DNA of 29,262 nt from a virus, in IMG/VR virus record IMGVR_UViG_3300009183_000275, positions 1 through 29,262 of that record. One strand, given 5' to 3'. Position 1 is the first letter of the stretch; each line of letters starts with the position of its first letter. The notes under the pieces are model-generated. The model ran no database searches and was not told the DNA's origin. It saw only the letters and a list, made by a program, of their open reading frames with translations. Below, one piece after another: positions 2,710-12,622 of this stretch. The position numbers and the translations under genes were made by a program.

Positions 2710-3900
2710 ATGGCAAATGAATTTATAGCTCGCAATGGTATTATATCTTTAAGTAATATCCAAATAACAGGTAGCCTGAATGTTACAGGTGGTATCACAG
2801 GTTCTATATCTGGAATGGCTACTACAGCCTCTTACATCAATCTCGCACAAACAGCTTCTTATAATTTACAAGCCATAAGCGCTTCTGTGGCAGTTACTGC
2901 TAGCGCGGCTAGAAACCCCGTATCACAAGGAATTACAGGTGTATTAGGTACTCAAGGTCCGGCTGGAAACGTTGGAACGCAAGGAGGTAACGGTATAGTA
3001 GGTATTCAAGGTACAGGCGGTCCAACAGGAACTACAGCTGCACAAGGTAGAACAGGTACTCAAGGTCCTACTGGTACAACCGTACAGGGTACACAAGGTG
3101 CTTCTAGTAGTAACGGTGATCAAGGCACTTTAGGTGCACAAGGTAGAGTAGGTACAACTGGTCCAACTGGCACAGTAGCAGGACCAACCGGCCCTTCAGG
3201 TCCTACAGGTAGAACAGGCGGATCCGGTCCAACCGGTCCAGTAGGTTCTACCGGTCCAACAGGTCCTCCTGGCCCGCCAGGTCCTCCCGGCCCAACTGGT
3301 TCACCTGGTCCAACAGGCGGACCCGGTCCAACCGGTCCAACCGGTCCTTACTCTACAGCAGCATCTGGCAATTCCGATTATGTTATGAAGTTTACTTCAA
3401 GTACAACAGCAGGTAATAGCTTAATGCAAGATAACGGATCTGCATGTATTGTGTCTAATTACATTTATATGTATGTACCTAGCGGTACTGCCGGTAGAGT
3501 AAATATCACTAAAGTAATTACTGGTAACCCTAGTGCAATAGCTTGTTATTCTAACGGTTCTTATTGTGGCGGTATGGATTACAGTGATAGTGCTACTCAA
3601 TTTCTATCTTCTTCAGATTATAGGTTAAAATACGATTTAAAAGATTTCAACGGTTTATCTTTACTTTCGAGAATTAAAGTATACAACTTTGCTTGGAAGC
3701 TAGACGATACAAGATCTTATGGTGTAGTAGCTCACGAATTACAGGAAATTTTGCCCGATGCAGTTATTGGGGAAAAAGACCGCATGGGATCAGACGGAAA
3801 TATGAAACCTCAAGGGGTTGATTATAGTAAAATAGTTCCTATATTAGTTAAAGCTACACAGGAATTACAGGAAATAGTTACACAGTTAAAAAATAAATAG
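2710..3900 (+). CDS. Collagen-like tail fibre with S74 chaperone domain, copy 1
   Basis: This 396-aa fibre has three parts. The N-terminal [13 protein letters not shown] block (residues 1-13) is almost shared with the next two genes and is followed by GS and TASY repeats; it probably docks to the tail. Residues about 77-213 are a Gly-X-Y collagen-like rod rich in GPTGP and GPPGPP, expected to form a triple helix. From about 222 comes a globular or trimerising part, then an S74 chaperone domain starting at S302-D303 with K307 (the Ser/Lys+5 self-cleavage dyad), [18 protein letters not shown], and a C-terminal helix. It is the first of three tandem paralogues and sits behind a putative late promoter. 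The likely role is host adhesion. Confidence 0.88.
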
Positions 3901-3931
3901 AAGTATTAGAATATGGCAAATGAATTTGTAG
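3894..3931 (+). repeat. 38-bp direct repeat at fibre gene junctions, copy 1
   Basis: Bases 3894-3931 equal 5135-5172 exactly. Each copy spans the stop of one fibre gene, the 12-base spacer and the first codons (MANEFV) of the next. Recombination between them would delete or duplicate a whole fibre gene. Confidence 0.85.
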
Positions 3932-5141
3932 CCCGTAATGGTATTATATCTCAAAACACCCTGCAAGTAACAGGGAGTATGAGTATAAGCAGCGGCGGTA
4001 TTACTGGATCTTTTTCAGGTACCGTAGCAACAGCATCTTATGCGGCTTTAGCTCAAACTGCTTCTTATGCTGCAAACGTACTAAGCGCTTCCTTTTCTAC
4101 TACAGCTGGTTATGCTCTAACTCCAACCGTACAAGGTACACAAGGTACACAAGGTATAGTAGGTGTATTAGGACCTCAAGGTGCCGTTGGTACACAAGGT
4201 GGACAAGGTACGACAGGTAACGTAGGTATTCAAGGCATAGGAGGTACACAAGGTACACAAGGTCCAATAGGAACACAAGGTATTCTTAGTCCTCCCGGTA
4301 CAATAGGTATAATAGGCCCTAAAGGTCCGCAAGGTACAGGACCCGGTTCACAAGGAGCTCAAGGCGGTACAGGCGGTACAGGTCCGCAAGGTGCTACAGG
4401 CTCTCCTGGAGGTCAAGGTACTACAGGTACAACTGGTCCTACCGGTAGAACAGGTCCTGCAAGCGCTGTAACAGGCAGTCCCGGTCCGACAGGCGGTGCT
4501 GGAGGTACAGGTCCACAAGGCGGTACAGGGCCAGCCGGCTCACCCGGTCCTCCAGGTGGTACAGGTCCGAACGGTTTGAGCGGTACCACAGGCTATATTG
4601 CTAAGTATACCTCATCTACTACTGCAGGCAGTGGATATGCATATGACGATGGATCTCAGGTATTGATTGGTAATACTTCAGCTAGTACTAGTGCAGGAAG
4701 TATTTGGATGTATAGACCAGGCGGTGCGGGTTATGGTAGAATAAATGTAATAAAAACATCACCAGGAGGTAATGACGCTGTAGCAAACTATTCTAATGGT
4801 AGTTATGTAGGAGGAATAGTATATGCTGATACTACTTGTAGCTTTCCAACATCTTCTGACTATAGATTAAAGTATGACTTAAGAGACTTTAACGGTACGA
4901 CTTTACTTTCAAGAATTAAAGTATATGACTTTGCTTGGAAAGTAGACGATACAAGGTCTTATGGAGTTATTGCTCATGAATTACAAGAAGTTCTTTCTGA
5001 TGCAGTTTTCGGAGAAAAAGATCGCATGGGATCAAATGGAGAAATTAAATACAAGGGGTGGATTATAGTAAAATAGTTCCTGTATTAGTCAAAACTATTC
5101 AAGAGTTGCAAGAAAGAGTTATACAGTTAAATAGTAAATAG
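3913..5141 (+). pseudogene. Collagen-like tail fibre with S74 domain, copy 2, frameshifted near its 3' end
   Basis: The open frame runs 3913-5076 (387 aa): MANEFVARNGIIS docking block, collagen-like rod (residues about 73-222), and an S74 domain with S315, D316 and K320. After [13 protein letters not shown] the frame turns into YKGWIIVK and stops. In the other frame, from about 5052, the sequence reads [14 protein letters not shown] and continues to a stop at 5139-5141, matching the [14 protein letters not shown] end of copy 1. One base appears to be missing around 5047-5052. As read, the protein loses the last roughly 30 residues of the chaperone domain, including its terminal helix, which would probably hurt trimer formation. 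It may be a real mutation in a redundant fibre gene or a sequence error. Confidence 0.8.
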
Positions 5142-5172
5142 AAGTATTAGAATATGGCAAATGAATTTGTAG
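5135..5172 (+). repeat. 38-bp direct repeat at fibre gene junctions, copy 2
   Basis: This is the second copy of the repeat at 3894-3931, 1241 bases downstream and spanning the junction between fibre copies 2 and 3. The first mismatch after the repeat is C at 3932 versus T at 5173. Confidence 0.85.
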
Positions 5173-6377
5173 TTCGTAATGGTATTATTTCACAGAATAA
5201 TATTCAAGTAACAGGTAGCTTGAATGCTACAGGTGGCATAACCGGATCTCTTTCTGGTACTGCTGCTTCTGCATCTTATGTAATTCTCTCTCAAACAGCT
5301 TCTTATGTTGTAAATTCAGTTAGTGCATCTTATTCGTTTACCGCTAGCTTTACCAATAATCCAAGTCTAACAGGTGCACAGGGTACACAAGGTATTCAAG
5401 GCGGTACAGGAGCACAAAGTGCACAAGGAGGAATAGGACCTCAAGGTACAGGCGGACCTCAAGGTACGCAAGGTACTACGGGTACAAACGGAAATGTAGG
5501 TATTCAGGGCGGACAAGGAGTTACAGGTACACAAGGTACCCAAGGTACACAAGGAGCACAAGGTTCGCAAGGAGCTCCAGGTAGTCAAGGTCCAGGTGGA
5601 ACAACAGGTACACAAGGCGGATCAGGTTCACCCGGCCCTCCCGGCCCTCCCGGAAGTCAAGGTACACTCGGTCCGCAAGGAGGTCAAGGACCAACCGGTT
5701 CTCCCGGAGGTCAAGGCCCAACAGGCGGTGGCGGTCCAACAGGACCTCCAGGCGGACCTGGTCCAACAGGTCCAACAGGCGGACCTGGTCCAACTGGTCC
5801 AAACAATTTAGCTGGTTCTACTAATTATATTGTTAGATTTACAGGGAATCTAGCTGGAACTACCGGTGTTACATACGACCAAGGAACTTTAATACTAGTA
5901 GGCGCTACTACTGCCAGTACTAGTGTTGCAACTGTATGGCTTTATAGAACCGCTAACGGATCTGGAAGATTTAATATTATTAAGACTGCTGGCGGATCTT
6001 ATGACTCTTTTGCAAACTACTACAACTCTACTTATGTAGGAGGAATAACTTACAGTGATAGTGCTACAGGTTTTGCAACATCTTCAGATTATAGGTTAAA
6101 GCACGATTTAAAGAATTTTAACGGTTTATCCTTACTTTCAAGAATAAAAGTGTACAACTTTGCTTGGAAATTAGACGATACAAGATCATATGGTGTTATT
6201 GCTCATGAATTAAAAGAAGTTCTTCCTGATGCAGTGAATGGCGAAAAAGATCAGTATTGTGAAGTCGATCCTACTAACATTAAACCACAAGCAGTTGATT
6301 ACAGTAAGATAATTCCTATATTAATACAATCCCTTCAAGAATTAGAAGAAGCGATTACAGAATTAGAAAGTAAATAA
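5154..6377 (+). CDS. Collagen-like tail fibre with S74 chaperone domain, copy 3
   Basis: This 407-aa protein has the same architecture as copies 1 and 2: MANEFVVRNGIIS docking block, TASY-type repeats, a collagen-like Gly-X-Y rod (residues about 74-217) with more GTQ and GGQ triplets than copy 1, a short head, and an S74 domain opening at S311-D312 with K316. The terminal portion is intact (QAVDYSKIIPILIQSLQELEEAI). Compared with copy 1 it carries a changed loop containing QYCEVDPTN. The three rods differ in length and triplet order while the ends are conserved, as expected for adhesins that diversify by unequal recombination. The three genes probably share the transcript that begins at the 2656 box. 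Confidence 0.88.
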   Translation: MANEFVVRNGIISQNNIQVTGSLNATGGITGSLSGTAASASYVILSQTASYVVNSVSASYSFTASFTNNPSLTGAQGTQGIQGGTGAQSAQGGIGPQGTGGPQGTQGTTGTNGNVGIQGGQGVTGTQGTQGTQGAQGSQGAPGSQGPGGTTGTQGGSGSPGPPGPPGSQGTLGPQGGQGPTGSPGGQGPTGGGGPTGPPGGPGPTGPTGGPGPTGPNNLAGSTNYIVRFTGNLAGTTGVTYDQGTLILVGATTASTSVATVWLYRTANGSGRFNIIKTAGGSYDSFANYYNSTYVGGITYSDSATGFATSSDYRLKHDLKNFNGLSLLSRIKVYNFAWKLDDTRSYGVIAHELKEVLPDAVNGEKDQYCEVDPTNIKPQAVDYSKIIPILIQSLQELEEAITELESK

Positions 6378-6379
6378 AG

Positions 6380-6410
6380 TTGCTTTTTAATTTAAAATAG
6401 CGTATATTAA
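6380..6410 (+). promoter_or_regulatory. Host-type promoter TTG-N20-TATATTAA before the radical SAM gene
   Basis: TTG at 6380-6382, 20 bases, then TATATTAA at 6403-6410. This has the spacing of the Bacteroidetes -33 TTG / -7 TAnnTTTG promoter, matching TAnnTT but not the last two bases. It directly follows the fibre cluster and lies 33 bases before the ATG at 6443. It is the weakest -7 box of the five seen here. Confidence 0.5.
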
Positions 6411-6442
6411 AGATCATACGTTTGTTATAAGAGATATAAATA

Positions 6443-8281
6443 ATGGTTATAAACTTAGTTAAAGATATACTACAGGAGGGTGGTTCAATTCACCCCTTAA
6501 TAATACCTCCAGATACTACCAACGGAACTGGGTTGATGAATCCATCTATTTTTGTACGTAATGGAAGATTGATTGTAAACCTACGTCACGTAAATTACAC
6601 TCTATATCACTGTGAAAACGGTCAATTATTTAATAACCGTTGGGGACCCTTAACATATTTAAATCCCGAAAACGACATTACTTTACGTACTGTTAATTAC
6701 TTTTGTAAATTAGATTCTAATTTTAACATAGGAGACTACTGTACCGTAGATACTACTCGTCTAGATGTTGAACCTATTTGGGAATTTGTTGGACTAGAAG
6801 ATGGAAGACTGGTAGAATGGGAAGGTTTATTGTATTTATGCGGTGTTAGAAGAGATACTACTACAAACGGACAAGGACGAATGGAATTGTCAGAGCTAAT
6901 AGTAAACAATGAAGCTGTAAAAGAGGTTGCGAGAAATAGAATAGAAGCTCCCAATGATCCAAGTTCTTATTGTGAAAAAAATTGGATGCCTGTTTTAGAT
7001 ATGCCCTTCCATTTTGTTAAATGGACTAATCCTACTGAATTAGTAAAAGTAGATTTAAAAACTAATACCTCTAAGACGGTTGTAACAAAAAGACAGGTAG
7101 GAGATCTCGGAAATTTAAGAGGAGGATCTCAAGTAATACCCTATAAAGGAAAAAGAATTTGTATTATTCACGTATGTCATTTTTGGTATACTACTTTAGA
7201 ACAAAAAAATGCTAAATACGATCATAGGTTTGTAGTTTGGGATAAAGATTGGAATATTGAATCTATCTCAGAACCTTTTAGCTTTATGGGAGGTGAGATT
7301 GAGTTTTGTACCGGTCTTGCTGAATACGAGGGTAATTTACTTATTACTTTTGGATTTCAAGATAATGCTGCCTACCTATTGAAAATGCCTACTAAGTTCT
7401 TTGATAACTTCGTAGAGTTTGTAGAAGAAGAAAAAGAGCATTGGAGATCAACTCCATATCCTACTTTAGAATTTACAACTTCTATACCGTCTAAGGGATG
7501 TGTAGTAGATTGTGCTTTCTGTCCTCAAAAAACCTTATTAAATGTCTATGACTCTACCAAGACGATGACATTAAAGAATTTTAAAAAGATAATTGATAAA
7601 TTACCCAAAGAAATTAGAATAACATTCTCAGGATTTACTGAACCTTGGTTAAATAAGCACTGTACGGATATGTTACTGTACGCCTATGAACAAGGGCATC
7701 CAGTATCTGCCTTTACAACAGGTGTTGGAATGACTATAGAAGATATAAAGCGTTTAAAAGACGTTAAATTCACTCAAGGACCTAATGGAGGATTTTGTTT
7801 GCACTTACCTGATCAAGAAAGAATAGCTAAGCACCCTATAACTCCTCGTTATATTGAAGTATTAAAGTACTTTAAAGAAGTACAAGATGAAATTAAAGGT
7901 TTTTACTTAATGTCTATGGGAGAGGTACATGAAGATGTTAAACATATCTTTCCAACAGCACATATACCGACCTTTTGGTCTCGAGCAGGTAACTTATTAG
8001 GTGAGGCAATCATTAAACCTGAATTACAAAAGTTTCAAGATAGGTTTAAGCATATGGATCATGGAGATCAAGAAATGACTTGTGGATGTATAGAAGACTT
8101 ATACCATAATGTAGTGTTACCAAATGGAGATGTATCCCTATGCTGCATGGATTATGGTTTAAAGCATATTATAGGTAATATCTACGATCAAGAATATAAT
8201 GATATAATTCCTAAACCTTTATCTTGCTTCAAACTTTGTCAGACTTGTGAAAATGGAGTAGACCCTAAAACTAAAGCGTAA
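6443..8281 (+). CDS. Beta-propeller / radical SAM / SPASM fusion protein
   Basis: This 612-aa two-part enzyme has an N-terminal region (about 1-330) resembling five-bladed propellers of the GH130/GH43 type: GLEDGRLVEWEGLLYLCGV (117-135), RGGSQVIPYKGKRICIIHVC (226-245), and FCTGLAEYEGNLLITFGFQ (288-306). The second part is a radical SAM domain with CVVDCAFC (C353, C357, C360), which ligates the 4Fe-4S cluster that cleaves S-adenosylmethionine, followed by FSGFTEP (395-401), the usual SAM-contact strand. Its C-terminus is SPASM-like: C547, C549, the pair C567-C568 after LPNGDVSL, a GNI motif, then C595, C599 and C602, enough for an auxiliary cluster. SPASM enzymes commonly modify peptides or sugars. 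The stop overlaps the next start by one base (TAATG), so the two are coupled. The substrate is unknown. Confidence 0.85.
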   Translation: MVINLVKDILQEGGSIHPLIIPPDTTNGTGLMNPSIFVRNGRLIVNLRHVNYTLYHCENGQLFNNRWGPLTYLNPENDITLRTVNYFCKLDSNFNIGDYCTVDTTRLDVEPIWEFVGLEDGRLVEWEGLLYLCGVRRDTTTNGQGRMELSELIVNNEAVKEVARNRIEAPNDPSSYCEKNWMPVLDMPFHFVKWTNPTELVKVDLKTNTSKTVVTKRQVGDLGNLRGGSQVIPYKGKRICIIHVCHFWYTTLEQKNAKYDHRFVVWDKDWNIESISEPFSFMGGEIEFCTGLAEYEGNLLITFGFQDNAAYLLKMPTKFFDNFVEFVEEEKEHWRSTPYPTLEFTTSIPSKGCVVDCAFCPQKTLLNVYDSTKTMTLKNFKKIIDKLPKEIRITFSGFTEPWLNKHCTDMLLYAYEQGHPVSAFTTGVGMTIEDIKRLKDVKFTQGPNGGFCLHLPDQERIAKHPITPRYIEVLKYFKEVQDEIKGFYLMSMGEVHEDVKHIFPTAHIPTFWSRAGNLLGEAIIKPELQKFQDRFKHMDHGDQEMTCGCIEDLYHNVVLPNGDVSLCCMDYGLKHIIGNIYDQEYNDIIPKPLSCFKLCQTCENGVDPKTKA

Positions 8282-9507
8282 TGGACTTACAGTATTGGCT
8301 AAATAATTACATATTAGATCCTTTCAATCCTAAAAATAATTTTAATTTAGGACTTTGCTACGAAGAAATAGGGCAAACAGCTTCAGCTGCTGGGTATTAT
8401 TTAAGAAGTGTAGAGTTTGGTAATGACGACGATCAAATATACGAAGGACTCCTTAGAATGTCTCTATGCTTTGAAAGACAAGGTAGTAGAGTCTTTACAA
8501 CTAAGGGTGTTTTATTGAGAGCGATATCCTTACTTCCAAAAAGACCAGAAGCTTATTTTTTATTAGCGAGAACCTATGAAAGAAGTAGAGATTGGCAAGA
8601 AACTTATACATTGTGTACTATCGCACCTCTAGTTACTACCGATAAGCCTAGAACATTAACAGATGTTGAATATCCAGGGGAATTTGGATTTGTATTTGAA
8701 AAAGCTATAGTAGCTTGGTGGATTGGTTTAATGGATGAATCTCTGCATTTATGGAGGACTTTAAAGAGAGACTATAATCTTCCTCTTAGGTATAAAACTA
8801 CTGTAGAAGATAACTTAAAAAGGTTAGATACAGGAATTAAAGAGCCAATTTTATACAATAAGGCAAAATACGAGCAGTTAAAGTATAAGTTCAAAGGAGT
8901 TTATAATTTAAAGCGAAATTACTCCCAATGTTACCAAGACTTCTTTGTTCTTACAATGTTAGACGGTAAAAGAAACGGAACATACCTAGAAATAGGATCA
9001 GCCGATCCGTTTCACGGCAATAACACAGCTCTACTAGAAAGAGACTTTGAATGGAAAGGAATTTCTATAGATATAGATGCACATTGGGTTGAGAAATTTG
9101 GTAGAGAGAGAAGTAATACGGTAATACAAGGTGATGCTACTAAATTAAACTATTCTGAACTGATTCCAGAAACAATTGTGGATTACCTACAAGTAGACTG
9201 CGATCCTCCAACTATATCTTATGAGGTTTTACAGAAAATACCGTTTCATACACATAAATTTGCTGTAATTACTTTTGAGCATGATTATTATGCCGACCCA
9301 ACTCAAAGTATTAGAGATAAGTCTCGCAAGTATCTAGAGTCTTTTGGTTATAAGCTTGTAGTAAGCAATATTGCACCTGATCAGTACTCTTCCTACGAAG
9401 ATTGGTGGGTACACCCTGATTTAGTAGATAGTAGGATTGTTGAGAAAATGGAGCAAACAGACGGTAGAACTAAAAAAGCTGAAGATTATATGCTTGGCAG
9501 GGTCTAA
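8281..9507 (+). CDS. TPR-like / FkbM-type SAM methyltransferase
   Basis: This 408-aa protein is translationally coupled to the radical SAM gene by a TAATG overlap. Residues about 12-185 are helical repeats of TPR type (NPKNNFNLGLCYEEIGQTAS, then RPEAYFLLARTYERSRDW). Residues about 215-380 form a Rossmann-type methyltransferase resembling FkbM: SQCYQDFFVL, motif I YLEIGSADPF (235-244), acidic strand SIDID (262-266), GDATKL (284-289), and YLQVDCDPP (302-310). FkbM-like enzymes O-methylate sugars and related small molecules. With its partner it may build or alter a glycan or peptide on virion or host. The methyltransferase call is firm; the acceptor is unknown. Such TPR modules in phages also appear in glycosyltransferases, so the repeats may hold a substrate carrier. 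Confidence 0.8.
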   Translation: MDLQYWLNNYILDPFNPKNNFNLGLCYEEIGQTASAAGYYLRSVEFGNDDDQIYEGLLRMSLCFERQGSRVFTTKGVLLRAISLLPKRPEAYFLLARTYERSRDWQETYTLCTIAPLVTTDKPRTLTDVEYPGEFGFVFEKAIVAWWIGLMDESLHLWRTLKRDYNLPLRYKTTVEDNLKRLDTGIKEPILYNKAKYEQLKYKFKGVYNLKRNYSQCYQDFFVLTMLDGKRNGTYLEIGSADPFHGNNTALLERDFEWKGISIDIDAHWVEKFGRERSNTVIQGDATKLNYSELIPETIVDYLQVDCDPPTISYEVLQKIPFHTHKFAVITFEHDYYADPTQSIRDKSRKYLESFGYKLVVSNIAPDQYSSYEDWWVHPDLVDSRIVEKMEQTDGRTKKAEDYMLGRV

Positions 9508-9534
9508 GTATTGGAGGTCTTCGAATTTATTAGA

Positions 9535-9542
9535 TATTTATA
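9535..9542 (+). promoter_or_regulatory. Putative phage late promoter box TATTTATA before 9566
   Basis: The exact box lies in the 58-base gap after the methyltransferase, 23 bases before the ATG at 9566, with the same AGA prefix as at 2656. It likely starts the tail sheath/tube unit. Confidence 0.5.
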
Positions 9543-9565
9543 TATAGTAAACAAAACTTAAACAT

Positions 9566-9790
9566 ATGGTATTTGGAATTATCATCATAGCTATAGCAGT
9601 AATTGTTGCTGTACTATTGAACAAAGCAAAAATCTCTAAGATAGCTAGTCAAGTTGAAGAAACTATAGCACCAGCTATTGAAGAAATTAAGGAAGTTGTA
9701 CAAAAAGCAGAAAATGCAGCTCCTAAAAATAAGACAATAAAAGCTGCTTCAACAGCTGTTAAAAGTGTAAAAACTAAAAAACAAAAATAA
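9566..9790 (+). CDS. Small single-pass membrane protein with Lys/Ala-rich tail
   Basis: This 74-aa protein has an N-terminal hydrophobic helix (residues about 2-18, VFGIIIIAIAVIVAVLL), an amphipathic helix rich in Glu (about 25-50), and a very basic Lys/Ala/Thr-rich tail. It is not a recognised family. A one-helix membrane protein with a charged tail next to late genes could be a holin-like, spanin-like or virion membrane-contact protein, but nothing in the sequence decides between these. It is one base from the next gene and probably co-transcribed with it from the 9535 box. Confidence 0.7.
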   Translation: MVFGIIIIAIAVIVAVLLNKAKISKIASQVEETIAPAIEEIKEVVQKAENAAPKNKTIKAASTAVKSVKTKKQK

Positions 9791-9791
9791 A

Positions 9792-10043
9792 ATGAGCAAC
9801 AAGGTTACATTAACTCCAGAGGAATTAGTAAAATTCCAAGCAACTAGAAAAGAAGTCTACGAAATAGTAGGAATCTTAGGCGATTTAAATTACAGAAAAA
9901 CTCTTTTAGATCTTGAATTAGAGGGTTTAAAAGAACATATCAAGCAAGCTACCGTAGCAGAAAGAACCCTTTTAAAGGAGTTTGGTGAGAAGTACGGAGA
10001 TGGTTCTATTAACATAGAAACAGGCGAAATTACTACATTATAA
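9792..10043 (+). CDS. Small coiled-coil hypothetical protein
   Basis: This 83-aa protein is predicted mostly helical, with heptad-like leucines (about 8-65: LTPEELVKFQATRKEV through KQATVAERTLLKEF), ending in a short GDGSINIETGEITTL strand pair. There is no signal or membrane segment. It starts one base after the previous stop, and the sheath gene follows after a gap holding a variant late box. No family is recognised; it could be an assembly factor or a small virion subunit. Confidence 0.65.
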   Translation: MSNKVTLTPEELVKFQATRKEVYEIVGILGDLNYRKTLLDLELEGLKEHIKQATVAERTLLKEFGEKYGDGSINIETGEITTL

Positions 10044-10071
10044 TAATTTAGGTTTTGCCATCGTTACCAGC

Positions 10072-10079
10072 TATTTATT
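10072..10079 (+). promoter_or_regulatory. Putative late promoter box variant TATTTATT before sheath gene
   Basis: One mismatch from TATTTATA, in the 56-base gap before the sheath gene and 20 bases ahead of its ATG at 10100. A dedicated promoter for the abundant sheath protein would make sense. Confidence 0.4.
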
Positions 10080-10099
10080 ATCAGAAATAAACACATAAA

Positions 10100-11872
10100 A
10101 TGGCAGAAGCATTAATTAGTCCTGGCGTTTTCCTTAGAGAAAACGACCTTTCTCAAATAACAGCAGGTCCAATTACAGTAGGATCAGCTTTAATCGGCCC
10201 TACAGTAGTAGGAAAAGTAAATACTCCAACCCTTGTAACTTCATATTCTGAGTATAAGGCTAAGTACGGTACTACTTTCGTTTCAGGAGGTAATACACAA
10301 GAGTACTTAACTTCTCAAGCAGCTTATAATTACTTCCAACAAGGAGGTACTTCATTGTTAGTAACAAGAGTGGCTAGTGGTTCTTATACTGCAGCTACTT
10401 CTTCTATGGTTATTAATAGCCTAGGATCAGCTTCTTTCCAAATAAGTACTTTATCAGTAGGTACAGTAATGAATAACAGCCAAGGTGCTACTACAGCAAC
10501 TAACGGGTTATTACCTTCTGGTTCAGCTGACAACGTTAGATGGCAGATAACTCAAGCTGATACAGCTTCAGGATACTTTACCTTACTTGTTAGACAAGGA
10601 AACGACTATACACAAGGTCAGACAGTATTAGAGACTTGGACTAACCTATCTTTAGATCCAAACCAAAATAACTATATTGCATACGTAATTGGAGATCAAG
10701 ACCAAAACGTAGCTACTGATGAAAGCGGTGCTGCTTATTTAAACATAACAGGTAGCTACCCTAACAGATCTAACTACATTAGAATATCTAATGTATTCTT
10801 CCCAACACCAAACTACTTGAACCCACAAGGTCAAGCATATGCAGCTTACACAGCTTCAATTCCTTTAAACGGTAGTGGATCAGCAAACGGATCTTTCGGC
10901 AGCGCAACTGGTGCTTTATACGGAGGTCTATTGACAAATGGTAGTGCATCTGTTGCATTAAATTTATTCGAACAAATACCAACAGTAGCTGCATCTGCTG
11001 CTGCTAACAATATTCAAGGATTAGTTAACACTAATTACGATACAGCAATTAGCTTACTTGCAAATCAAGATGCTTATGTCTATAACGCAATTTACGCACC
11101 AGGTATTACTAATCAAAACGCTGCAAGTCAAGTATCTACTCTATTAAGTACGGTTCAAAATCGTGGTGATGCTATCGCAGTAGTAGATATGGTTGGATAC
11201 AATCAAGCAATTAGTACAGTAGCTACTGGAGCTCAATCTTACGATAATTCTTATGGTGCTACTTATTGGCCATGGGTTCAAGTAAGATCTACAGAGACTG
11301 GTAGATTAAATTTCGTACCAGCTTCTACTATCATACCAGGAGTATATGAGTACAATGATAAAGTATCTGCTGAGTGGTTTGCACCTGCAGGTCTTAACAG
11401 AGGAGGTTTACCAACAGTAATCCAACCTGAAAGAAGATTAACTGTAGCTCAAAGAAACACTCTATACAACGCTAAGGTGAACCCAATTGCAGTATTCCCA
11501 GGTCAAGGTACAGTAGTATACGGTCAAAAGACATTACAAGCTAGAGCTTCTGCTTTAGATAGAGTAAATGTAAGACGTTTACTAATTGCATTAAAAGGAT
11601 ACATTGGACAAATCGCAGCTACATTAGTATTTGAACAAAATACAGCCGTAACTAGAAACAAATTTATATCTCAAGTTAATCCTTACTTAGAATATGTACA
11701 ACAAAGACAAGGTTTGTATGCATTCAGAGTAGTGATGGATGAGACTAACAACACACCAGATGTAATTGATAGAAACTTACTTGTAGGTGCTATTTACTTA
11801 CAGCCAACAAGAACTGCTGAATTTATCCAATTAGACTTTAACATCTTACCAACAGGTGTAACTTTTGGATAA
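10100..11872 (+). CDS. gp18: Contractile tail sheath protein (gp18 family)
   Basis: This 590-aa protein has the classic sheath opening ISPGVFLRENDLSQI (residues about 6-20), then VGSALIGPTVVGKVNTPTLV and SEYKAKYG, the conserved N-terminal strand pair that links neighbouring sheath subunits. The C-terminal part has RLTVAQRNTLYNAKVNPIAV, GQKTLQ, DRVNVRRLLIALKGYI and the closing beta strand region LNTLPTG-type ending in FNILPTGVTFG, all typical of gp18/Pfam phage sheath. The variable middle (about 100-330) is the exposed protrusion domain. It polymerises around the tube and contracts on infection. Length is close to T4 gp18 (659 aa). ATG 10100 fits the family N-terminus. Confidence 0.95.
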   Translation: MAEALISPGVFLRENDLSQITAGPITVGSALIGPTVVGKVNTPTLVTSYSEYKAKYGTTFVSGGNTQEYLTSQAAYNYFQQGGTSLLVTRVASGSYTAATSSMVINSLGSASFQISTLSVGTVMNNSQGATTATNGLLPSGSADNVRWQITQADTASGYFTLLVRQGNDYTQGQTVLETWTNLSLDPNQNNYIAYVIGDQDQNVATDESGAAYLNITGSYPNRSNYIRISNVFFPTPNYLNPQGQAYAAYTASIPLNGSGSANGSFGSATGALYGGLLTNGSASVALNLFEQIPTVAASAAANNIQGLVNTNYDTAISLLANQDAYVYNAIYAPGITNQNAASQVSTLLSTVQNRGDAIAVVDMVGYNQAISTVATGAQSYDNSYGATYWPWVQVRSTETGRLNFVPASTIIPGVYEYNDKVSAEWFAPAGLNRGGLPTVIQPERRLTVAQRNTLYNAKVNPIAVFPGQGTVVYGQKTLQARASALDRVNVRRLLIALKGYIGQIAATLVFEQNTAVTRNKFISQVNPYLEYVQQRQGLYAFRVVMDETNNTPDVIDRNLLVGAIYLQPTRTAEFIQLDFNILPTGVTFG

Positions 11873-11893
11873 TAAACTATAAAAACTCGTTCG

Positions 11894-12622
11894 ATGAACA
11901 ATAAAACAAGAATTAGATTACATTTATCTAAGAATTTATTTGAATCTCTATCAAGAGAAATTTTAGCAGAAGCTAAAGTTAATGGCGGCGGCGCTTATAC
12001 AGTAGCTGTAAAGACTCCTAAGACTGGTAAAATCAAAGAAGTAAATGCAATGGCAGATACCGATAAGATGAAAAAAATGGAAGAAAAAATGTCTTCCAAA
12101 GAGAAAATGGCTAAGGGCTTATATAATGAGGTAGACGCTGAAATGGATACCAATAAGATGAGAACCATGGAAGAGGGTCCTAAAGTAAAGCATGATGTTG
12201 AGTCTTTAAAGAAAGCTAAGGCTAAGATTGAAAAAAAATTAGCTGAAATGCAAATTAACGTAGCCGAAGAAGATAACGTAAGCGAGGTAAAATCTGCTGA
12301 CGAGATAAAAATGAACGATATCTACTTCTTTACTCAGTCAACAGATAAGTACGGACAATCAGGAAAAGCAGCCCCTATTAAGGTAAAGGTTTTAAGTGCA
12401 TACAACGACGAATGGTTTAGTGTAGAAGTACAAGAAAACGGTCCTGATCATAAGAGAGGAGAGAAAATTAAAGCTTCGTATGTTAATTTATTTCCGTTAA
12501 CTACTCACTTTAGCGGTAGTAATGAACCTATAGATGAGAAAAGCAAAGCCGCTGGTACACACTTACACAAGCCACAAGCTCCACCTAGTTTAAATGAGTT
12601 ACGTAAGCAAGTTAAAAAGTAA
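11894..12622 (+). CDS. Hypothetical protein between sheath and tube
   Basis: This 242-aa protein opens with RIRLHLSKNLFESLSREILAEAK (residues 6-28), an amphipathic helix, then a Lys/Glu/Met-rich charged stretch with an imperfect internal repeat (DTDKMKKMEEKM at 55-66 and DTNKMRTMEEG at 85-95), a coiled region about 100-120, and a small C-terminal beta domain (about 135-200, with NDIYFFTQSTDKYGQSG). It ends in a Pro/Lys-rich tail. I do not recognise the family. Its place between sheath and tube, which are adjacent in T4, suggests a virion or tail-assembly role. It starts 21 bases after the sheath stop with no box of its own, so it is probably on the sheath transcript. Confidence 0.7.
   Translation: MNNKTRIRLHLSKNLFESLSREILAEAKVNGGGAYTVAVKTPKTGKIKEVNAMADTDKMKKMEEKMSSKEKMAKGLYNEVDAEMDTNKMRTMEEGPKVKHDVESLKKAKAKIEKKLAEMQINVAEEDNVSEVKSADEIKMNDIYFFTQSTDKYGQSGKAAPIKVKVLSAYNDEWFSVEVQENGPDHKRGEKIKASYVNLFPLTTHFSGSNEPIDEKSKAAGTHLHKPQAPPSLNELRKQVKK

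Follow-up and report, generated by a model that had tools for sequence, protein, structure and literature searches.

The window analysed here (29,262 bases, the complete virus record IMGVR_UViG_3300009183_000275 of IMG/VR) belongs to a T4-like myovirus with a tail sheath nearest to that of Flavobacterium phage immuto (54% identity), which is why a Bacteroidota host is likely. Between 2710 and 6377 the window carries three genes for collagen-like fibres, at least two of which have an S74 chaperone domain according to Pfam; GPT is the most frequent triplet of the first, and the last ends 65 bp upstream of two consecutive open reading frames (ORFs), ORF A and ORF B, that are the subject of this report. 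ORF A encodes a propeller (module P) and a radical S-adenosylmethionine (SAM) module (R), ORF B a tetratricopeptide repeat (TPR) domain (T) and a methyltransferase (F). The original prediction, made from the DNA alone, had described an enzyme of three modules paired with a TPR/methyltransferase protein within a fibre locus, the stop of the one overlapping the start of the other. This description holds: both ORFs are intact, they share one base (TAATG, 8279-8283), and the structural models are confident for ORF A (mean predicted local distance difference test score, pLDDT, 91) as well as for ORF B (96). The features of the locus are listed in Table 1.

Table 1. Features of the fibre and cassette region, in window coordinates (aa, amino acids).
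Feature	Position	Strand	Details
Collagen-like fibre gene with S74 chaperone domain, likely substrate	2710..3900	+	Pfam Collagen 5e-13, Peptidase_S74 1e-10
Collagen-like fibre gene, likely substrate	3913..5076	+	44 Gly-X-Y triplets in runs of ≥8
Collagen-like fibre gene with S74, likely substrate	5154..6377	+	42-triplet Gly-X-Y run; Pfam Collagen 5e-10, S74 4e-11
ORF A	6443-8281	+	612 aa, intact
Module P: GH130/GT108-type five-bladed propeller	6443..7420	+	ORF A aa 1-326; AlphaFold model and Foldseek/VIA
GLED(G/A)R motif of P, includes D120	6791..6808	+	aa 117-122; alignment to 7fip and 9fj8
Module R: radical SAM with auxiliary-cluster (twitch) C-terminus	7433..8275	+	ORF A aa 331-611; Pfam, BtrN fold
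CxxxCxxC [4Fe-4S]-SAM motif, C353/C357/C360	7499..7522	+	Alignment of R sequences
Auxiliary-cluster cysteines C547, C567/C568, C599, C602 (C-x14-G-x4-C ... C-x2-C)	8081..8248	+	Alignment of R sequences
ORF B	8281-9507	+	408 aa, intact
Module T: TPR domain	8281..8838	+	ORF B aa 1-186; Pfam TPR_17, model
Module F: divergent class I (FkbM-like) methyltransferase	8866..9504	+	ORF B aa 196-408; model, motifs, BFVD
Right edge of variable region: synteny with sister phage L171 starts again	9534	.	blastn

The N-terminal part of ORF A had been called propeller-like, and a propeller it is, albeit not a generic one: structure matches and invariant residues assign it to the carbohydrate enzymes of the GH130/GT108 type. 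The best Foldseek/VIA matches of P in the AlphaFold model (built on 92 sequences) are all GH130/GT108, among them Teth514_1788 (9gph; VIA Z 23.6, 276 residues aligned, root-mean-square deviation (rmsd) 3.6, 13% identity) and Leishmania MPT-2 (6q4z; VIA Z 18.7), and the next family, GH43, reaches a Z of about 17 as compared to 18-24 for GH130/GT108. Structure alone was informative here, as scans of the propeller with Pfam, PHROGs and NCBIfam gave no usable annotation, and a PDB profile search with the entire ORF A sequence returned nothing useful. Because there is no Pfam GH130 match (searched up to E 0.1 for ORF A and up to E 1 for the divergent P from locus L004), P is not filed as a member of the GH130 family, yet it has the fold and the active-site residues of one. 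In a weak profile alignment (E 0.6-1.1) of P to the GH130 phosphorylases 7fip and 9fj8, a GLED(A/P)R motif, an N-terminal Asn and a C-terminal Asp are in register. With residue numbers corrected for the PDB numbering offset, the positions in register are N28, D98 and D287 of Teth514_1789 and D92 and D281 of Teth514_1788, which are listed as mannose-recognition residues (PMC4264767). Their counterparts in P are N33, D120 and D307, equivalent to the mannose-subsite residues Asn73, Asp131 and Asp344 (B. fragilis MGP numbering), and all three are invariant among 21 P sequences, including an Actinomycetia phage member at 26% identity; E119, which corresponds to the Glu that marks the GH130_NC group, is invariant too. 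The fold and the invariant mannose-site residues together imply that P is very probably an active carbohydrate enzyme, and we consider this identity of the propeller the key to the function of the locus.

In the remainder of ORF A, Pfam recognises Radical_SAM (aa 348-502, 3e-8) and SPASM (aa 549-592, 6.9e-6), both above cut-off, the latter covering 46 of the 67 model positions. The fold of R resembles that of BtrN (4m7t; VIA Z 16.9, rmsd 3.5, 218 residues aligned, 21% identity), and DesII is also found among its Foldseek matches. The cysteines predicted to form the radical SAM motif, C353, C357 and C360, are exactly in place and invariant in 30 of 30 R sequences. Further cysteines of ORF A are found at 547, 549, 567, 568, 595, 599 and 602, where C547, C567/C568, C599 and C602 are likewise invariant (30/30) and C549 and C595 are present in 28 and 22 of the 30, respectively. 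The SPASM motif that binds two auxiliary clusters comprises seven cysteines (CX9-15GX4C...CX2CX5CX3C...C); ORF A has its first half, with no Cys between C599-x2-C602 and the C-terminus. Since only four ligand-type cysteine positions beyond the SAM motif are invariant, the auxiliary region fits a BtrN-like twitch with one cluster. The SPASM-like cysteines that had been noted at 547-602 are therefore there, and give a Pfam SPASM match, but they point to a one-cluster twitch and not to a two-cluster SPASM domain.

The model of ORF B combines a TPR superhelix (Pfam TPR_17, 1.2e-8, above cut-off) with a class I methyltransferase. OGT and SPINDLY are among the best Foldseek matches of T, at a VIA Z of 15-17, a level common to many TPR proteins. 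Of the FkbM-type methyltransferase that had been expected behind the TPR domain, the class I fold, FkbM-like motifs and structural neighbours in BFVD were recovered, but the FkbM models of Pfam (PF05050) and NCBIfam (TIGR01444) have no match in ORF B. Phage proteins that bear the name 'Methyltransferase FkbM' head the BFVD neighbours of ORF B, ahead of many giant-virus and phage glycosyltransferases, and the motifs LEIG and LQxD(C)(D/E)P are invariant or almost so in the alignment of F. Comparison of F with canonical FkbM modules by hhalign was weak (probability 8%), and in the PDB fold search with ORF B the TPR domain occupied the list, so that F obtained no match of its own. We thus regard F as a putative divergent class I methyltransferase that is FkbM-like rather than FkbM proper; canonical FkbM modules adjoin F in relatives. 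Both halves of the pair are likely to depend on SAM, as had been proposed, and a glycan-related role for the pair is likely as well.

Relatives of the cassette were collected with two scans of IMG/VR, which yielded about 155 loci with frequencies that are biased by the queries; the locus sets are limited by the database, relatedness was only partly removed and many contigs are short. At least 599 matching stretches were found, many of them with the modules reshuffled. In 67 of the 73 non-redundant loci T comes next after P or is fused with it, and about ten architectures occur, including P+TF, PR+TF (the window), P+T, P+TF+R, P+TFR, P+TR and PTF. The arrangement of ORF A and ORF B was found again in independent contigs, which implies that it is due neither to chance nor to misassembly. 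The fused pair of the original prediction does recur, but the shuffling makes it just one arrangement of a kit, in which P+T is the constant unit and FkbM, radical-SAM, GT2, GT25 and methyltransferase modules are swapped around it. R, for instance, is frequently missing where P+T persists, and the inserted modules that were identified by profile matches encompass canonical FkbM (1e-26), GT2 (2e-6), GT25 (9e-7), two methyltransferase types and DUF6445. Phage DSL-LC02, of which just an assembled genome exists, encodes P and then T-FkbM-R, the cultured Synechococcus phage S-SCSM2R (host WH7803) encodes P and then T-F-DUF6445, and neighbours of the cassette include GT11, a carbamoyltransferase and 2-oxoglutarate (2OG) oxygenases. 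One phage contig carries a second, divergent copy of P downstream of its P+TF pair (L156:9257-10867). A genome scan for a cellular origin recovered eight matches, only on contigs of metagenome-assembled genomes or genome bins, and because all eight have P and then T, contamination by phage or prophage is likely. The contigs L163, L164 and L166 of the Rhodobacteraceae bin Water_Bin34, each with P and then T-F, are probably binned phage contigs. None of the papers searched describes the cassette, and it goes unmentioned in the publication on DSL-LC02.

The cassette is associated with collagen-like fibre genes. In 14 of 25 loci the 5 kb upstream of P contain an ORF for a collagen-like protein, as compared to 1 of 45 on the downstream side, and when ORFs with either collagen or S74 are counted these numbers become 19 of 25 and 1 of 45. 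As an independent anchor test, loci were gathered on the basis of collagen DNA only, using either (GTQ)4 or (GPQ)4. Of the 120 (GTQ)4 loci, 20 contained P (18 of 98 clusters) and 26 contained T, whereas P was absent from all 118 (GPQ)4 loci (0/108 clusters; Fisher p 6e-7); with the closest sheath relatives as the anchor, P was found in 0 of 80 loci (0/66 clusters). Thr is present in 51% of the collagen triplets near the cassette, in 44% of those of the window, where GPT is the most frequent, and in 21% of those of the GPQ loci. The GTQ loci without P are about as Thr-rich as those near the cassette, and the cassette is therefore not predicted by Thr content alone. In locus L272 a methyltransferase and a GT25 come after the P-T core and face two collagen genes, GT25 being the family of the collagen galactosyltransferases. 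Genes for an adenosine 5'-phosphosulfate (APS) kinase, an Asp/Asn hydroxylase and a sulfotransferase adjoin that locus (L272:2893-5123), and these neighbours suggest phage-encoded sulfation.

The sister phage L171, which has a sheath 95% identical to that of the window phage, carries other genes in the same slot. According to blastn it is 84% identical to the window over 9534-12024, with no similarity upstream of 9534, i.e. directly past ORF B. Where the window has the collagen genes and the cassette, L171 encodes a carbamoyltransferase, an APS kinase, an S74 fibre, a weak sulfotransferase match, 2OG oxygenases and an SGNH-like protein. The same stretch (L171:74-9403) also contains a cytidylyltransferase-like ORF and several 2OG-Fe(II) oxygenase ORFs around the S74 fibre, and is possibly another fibre-decorating island. 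In the cassette-bearing relative L005 the cassette is retained at 71% nucleotide identity.

The original prediction had furthermore placed the pair in host takeover, on account of a promoter-like string upstream that was assigned to the class preceding DNA-metabolism genes. The octamer TATATTAA occurs 5 times in the window where 6.6 copies are expected, and the spaced pattern 40 times (at most 2 mismatches) where 38.6 are expected. Both are thus at chance level, and the early-promoter idea, on which the takeover role rested, is not supported; the occurrence of the cassette together with genes for collagen-like fibres suggests the virion as its target rather than takeover or the host surface. 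A perfect TATAAATA (6435-6442) directly abuts the ATG of ORF A, too near to be the normal start of its mRNA; of the 11 copies that the window contains, only 2 lie on the coding strand. TATTTAT is enriched between genes (8 in 2.0 kb intergenic versus 7 in 27 kb coding DNA), and TATTTAT(A), which is found just upstream of several window genes (e.g. at 2656, 9535, 12632, 14613 and 25443), is a candidate for the late-promoter box in this group of phages.

We propose, at a probability of about 0.57, that the locus is one version of a widespread modular cassette with which phages glycosylate their own collagen-like tail fibres and tailor the glycans. The folds, the conserved active-site residues, the P-T core, the shuffling of modules and the position beside, and co-occurrence with, Thr-rich collagen fibres were computed; for the donor, the acceptor, the reaction of each module and the fibre as the substrate we infer the following. 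P would transfer a hexose, most likely of the mannose type, from a nucleotide sugar or a sugar 1-phosphate, either directly to Thr/Ser of the Gly-X-Y repeats or to a first sugar already present on them. T would dock the fibre chain, like the TPRs of OGT and SPINDLY do, F would cap the sugar through O-methylation, and R may oxidise or otherwise rearrange it, comparable to BtrN and DesII on sugar-like substrates. P+T would then be the constant engine, and F, R, GT2, GT25, the extra methyltransferases and DUF6445 the exchangeable decorators, which implies that each phage would show a different fibre glycan. A more far-reaching and rather doubtful proposal is that P+T constitutes a protein O-glycosyltransferase of a new type: a TPR-guided propeller of the GH130/GT108 type would initiate or elongate glycans on the Thr residues of collagen-like fibres, and plug-in SAM-dependent and radical-SAM domains would diversify the sugar coat of the virion.

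Several observations weigh against fibre glycosylation. Around half of the cassette loci with sufficient flank have no collagen-like gene nearby (in S-SCSM2R, with P-T-F, the nearest long collagen-like run is 6 kb off), and about 80% of the GTQ-collagen loci are without P within the DNA examined, while the contrast between GTQ and GPQ may be partly due to phage lineage or habitat. The likeness of T to OGT is weak evidence, because TPR folds are generic. The characterised GH130/GT108 enzymes have oligosaccharide substrates, and we know of none that acts on protein. Alternatively, the cassette could remodel a host surface glycan or nucleotide-sugar precursors during infection, bringing about superinfection exclusion or keeping new virions off debris, and its adjacency to fibre genes would then reflect shared receptor matching. 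Enzymes of the FkbM, GT2, GT11 and GT25 types are known from lipopolysaccharide and capsule loci too, and a carbamoyltransferase and GT11 are among the neighbours; moreover, one GH130 activity targets a motif that is present in O-antigens (PMC8950772). Nevertheless, neither of the two proteins has an evident membrane anchor or export signal, the neighbours that were scanned include no flippase, ligase or polymerase, the association is specific to Thr-rich collagen genes, and the slot of sister phage L171 holds genes that are 2OG-oxygenase-like and sulfotransferase-like, all of which makes a role in host-glycan remodelling unlikely.

It is less likely still that the modification concerns the fibre polypeptide itself, with R acting on backbone or side chain in the manner of ribosomally synthesized and post-translationally modified peptides, F methylating peptide and the propeller merely binding. 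SPASM/twitch radical SAM enzymes commonly have peptide substrates and a TPR domain could present a peptide, but the propeller retains all three mannose-site residues and is therefore unlikely to be a mere binder, the solved folds nearest to R belong to enzymes of aminocyclitol and sugar substrates, and R is often missing while P+T remains. Least probable of all, in our view, is an auxiliary metabolic function, namely that P is a phosphorylase that supplies mannose 1-phosphate to the phage and that the other modules are unrelated passengers: true phosphorylases do exist in GH130 and GT108 (PMC8950772), but the constant pairing with TPR, the shuffled fusions with transferases and the fibre-linked position all run counter to it. 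Phage fibre glycosylation has been little explored, and a common, swappable enzyme kit for it could govern the receptor binding, the stability or the antigenicity of virions. Such a kit would also point to a role, not recognised before, of the GH130/GT108 fold and of radical SAM chemistry in a virus, and the minimal loci that consist of P+T and collagen make direct enzymatic testing simple.

At the level of the individual modules, P shares with the GH130/GT108 enzymes (Teth514_1788/1789 and Leishmania MPT-1/2/4) the five-bladed propeller, the GxED(P/A)R motif, the Asn and two Asp of the mannose subsite and, as in GH130_NC, the Glu that precedes the Asp. It differs from them in sequence (9-16% identity, under Pfam detection), in being fused to radical SAM or placed beside TPR, and in being nearly confined to viral contigs. 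R has the fold, the CxxxCxxC motif and the cysteine set for a single auxiliary cluster in common with BtrN and DesII, whereas its being joined to P or to T-F modules sets it apart. OGT and SPINDLY likewise pair a TPR domain with a glycosyltransferase for protein substrates, although their catalytic fold is another one and in the cassette TPR and P are mostly separate proteins.

At the level of the complete system, precedents exist for each of the ideas separately. PBCV-1 A064R, a GT-GT-methyltransferase fusion that builds the virion glycan, and mimivirus L230, a collagen hydroxylase/glucosyltransferase that glucosylates collagen and has a viral collagen-like protein as its substrate (PMC9614988), are, like the cassette, multi-domain enzymes that a virus encodes for glycans of its own; they belong, however, to eukaryotic viruses and have unrelated GT folds, without radical SAM, GH130-type or TPR modules. 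Another precedent is provided by C. difficile SgtA-BclA3 and Bacillus BclA, where, as in the cassette, a glycosyltransferase gene adjoins that of a Thr-rich (GPT) collagen-like surface fibre: SgtA, encoded beside bclA3, O-glycosylates Thr of the BclA3 collagen repeats (PMC7157674), albeit on bacterial spores and by means of a conventional GT instead of a propeller.

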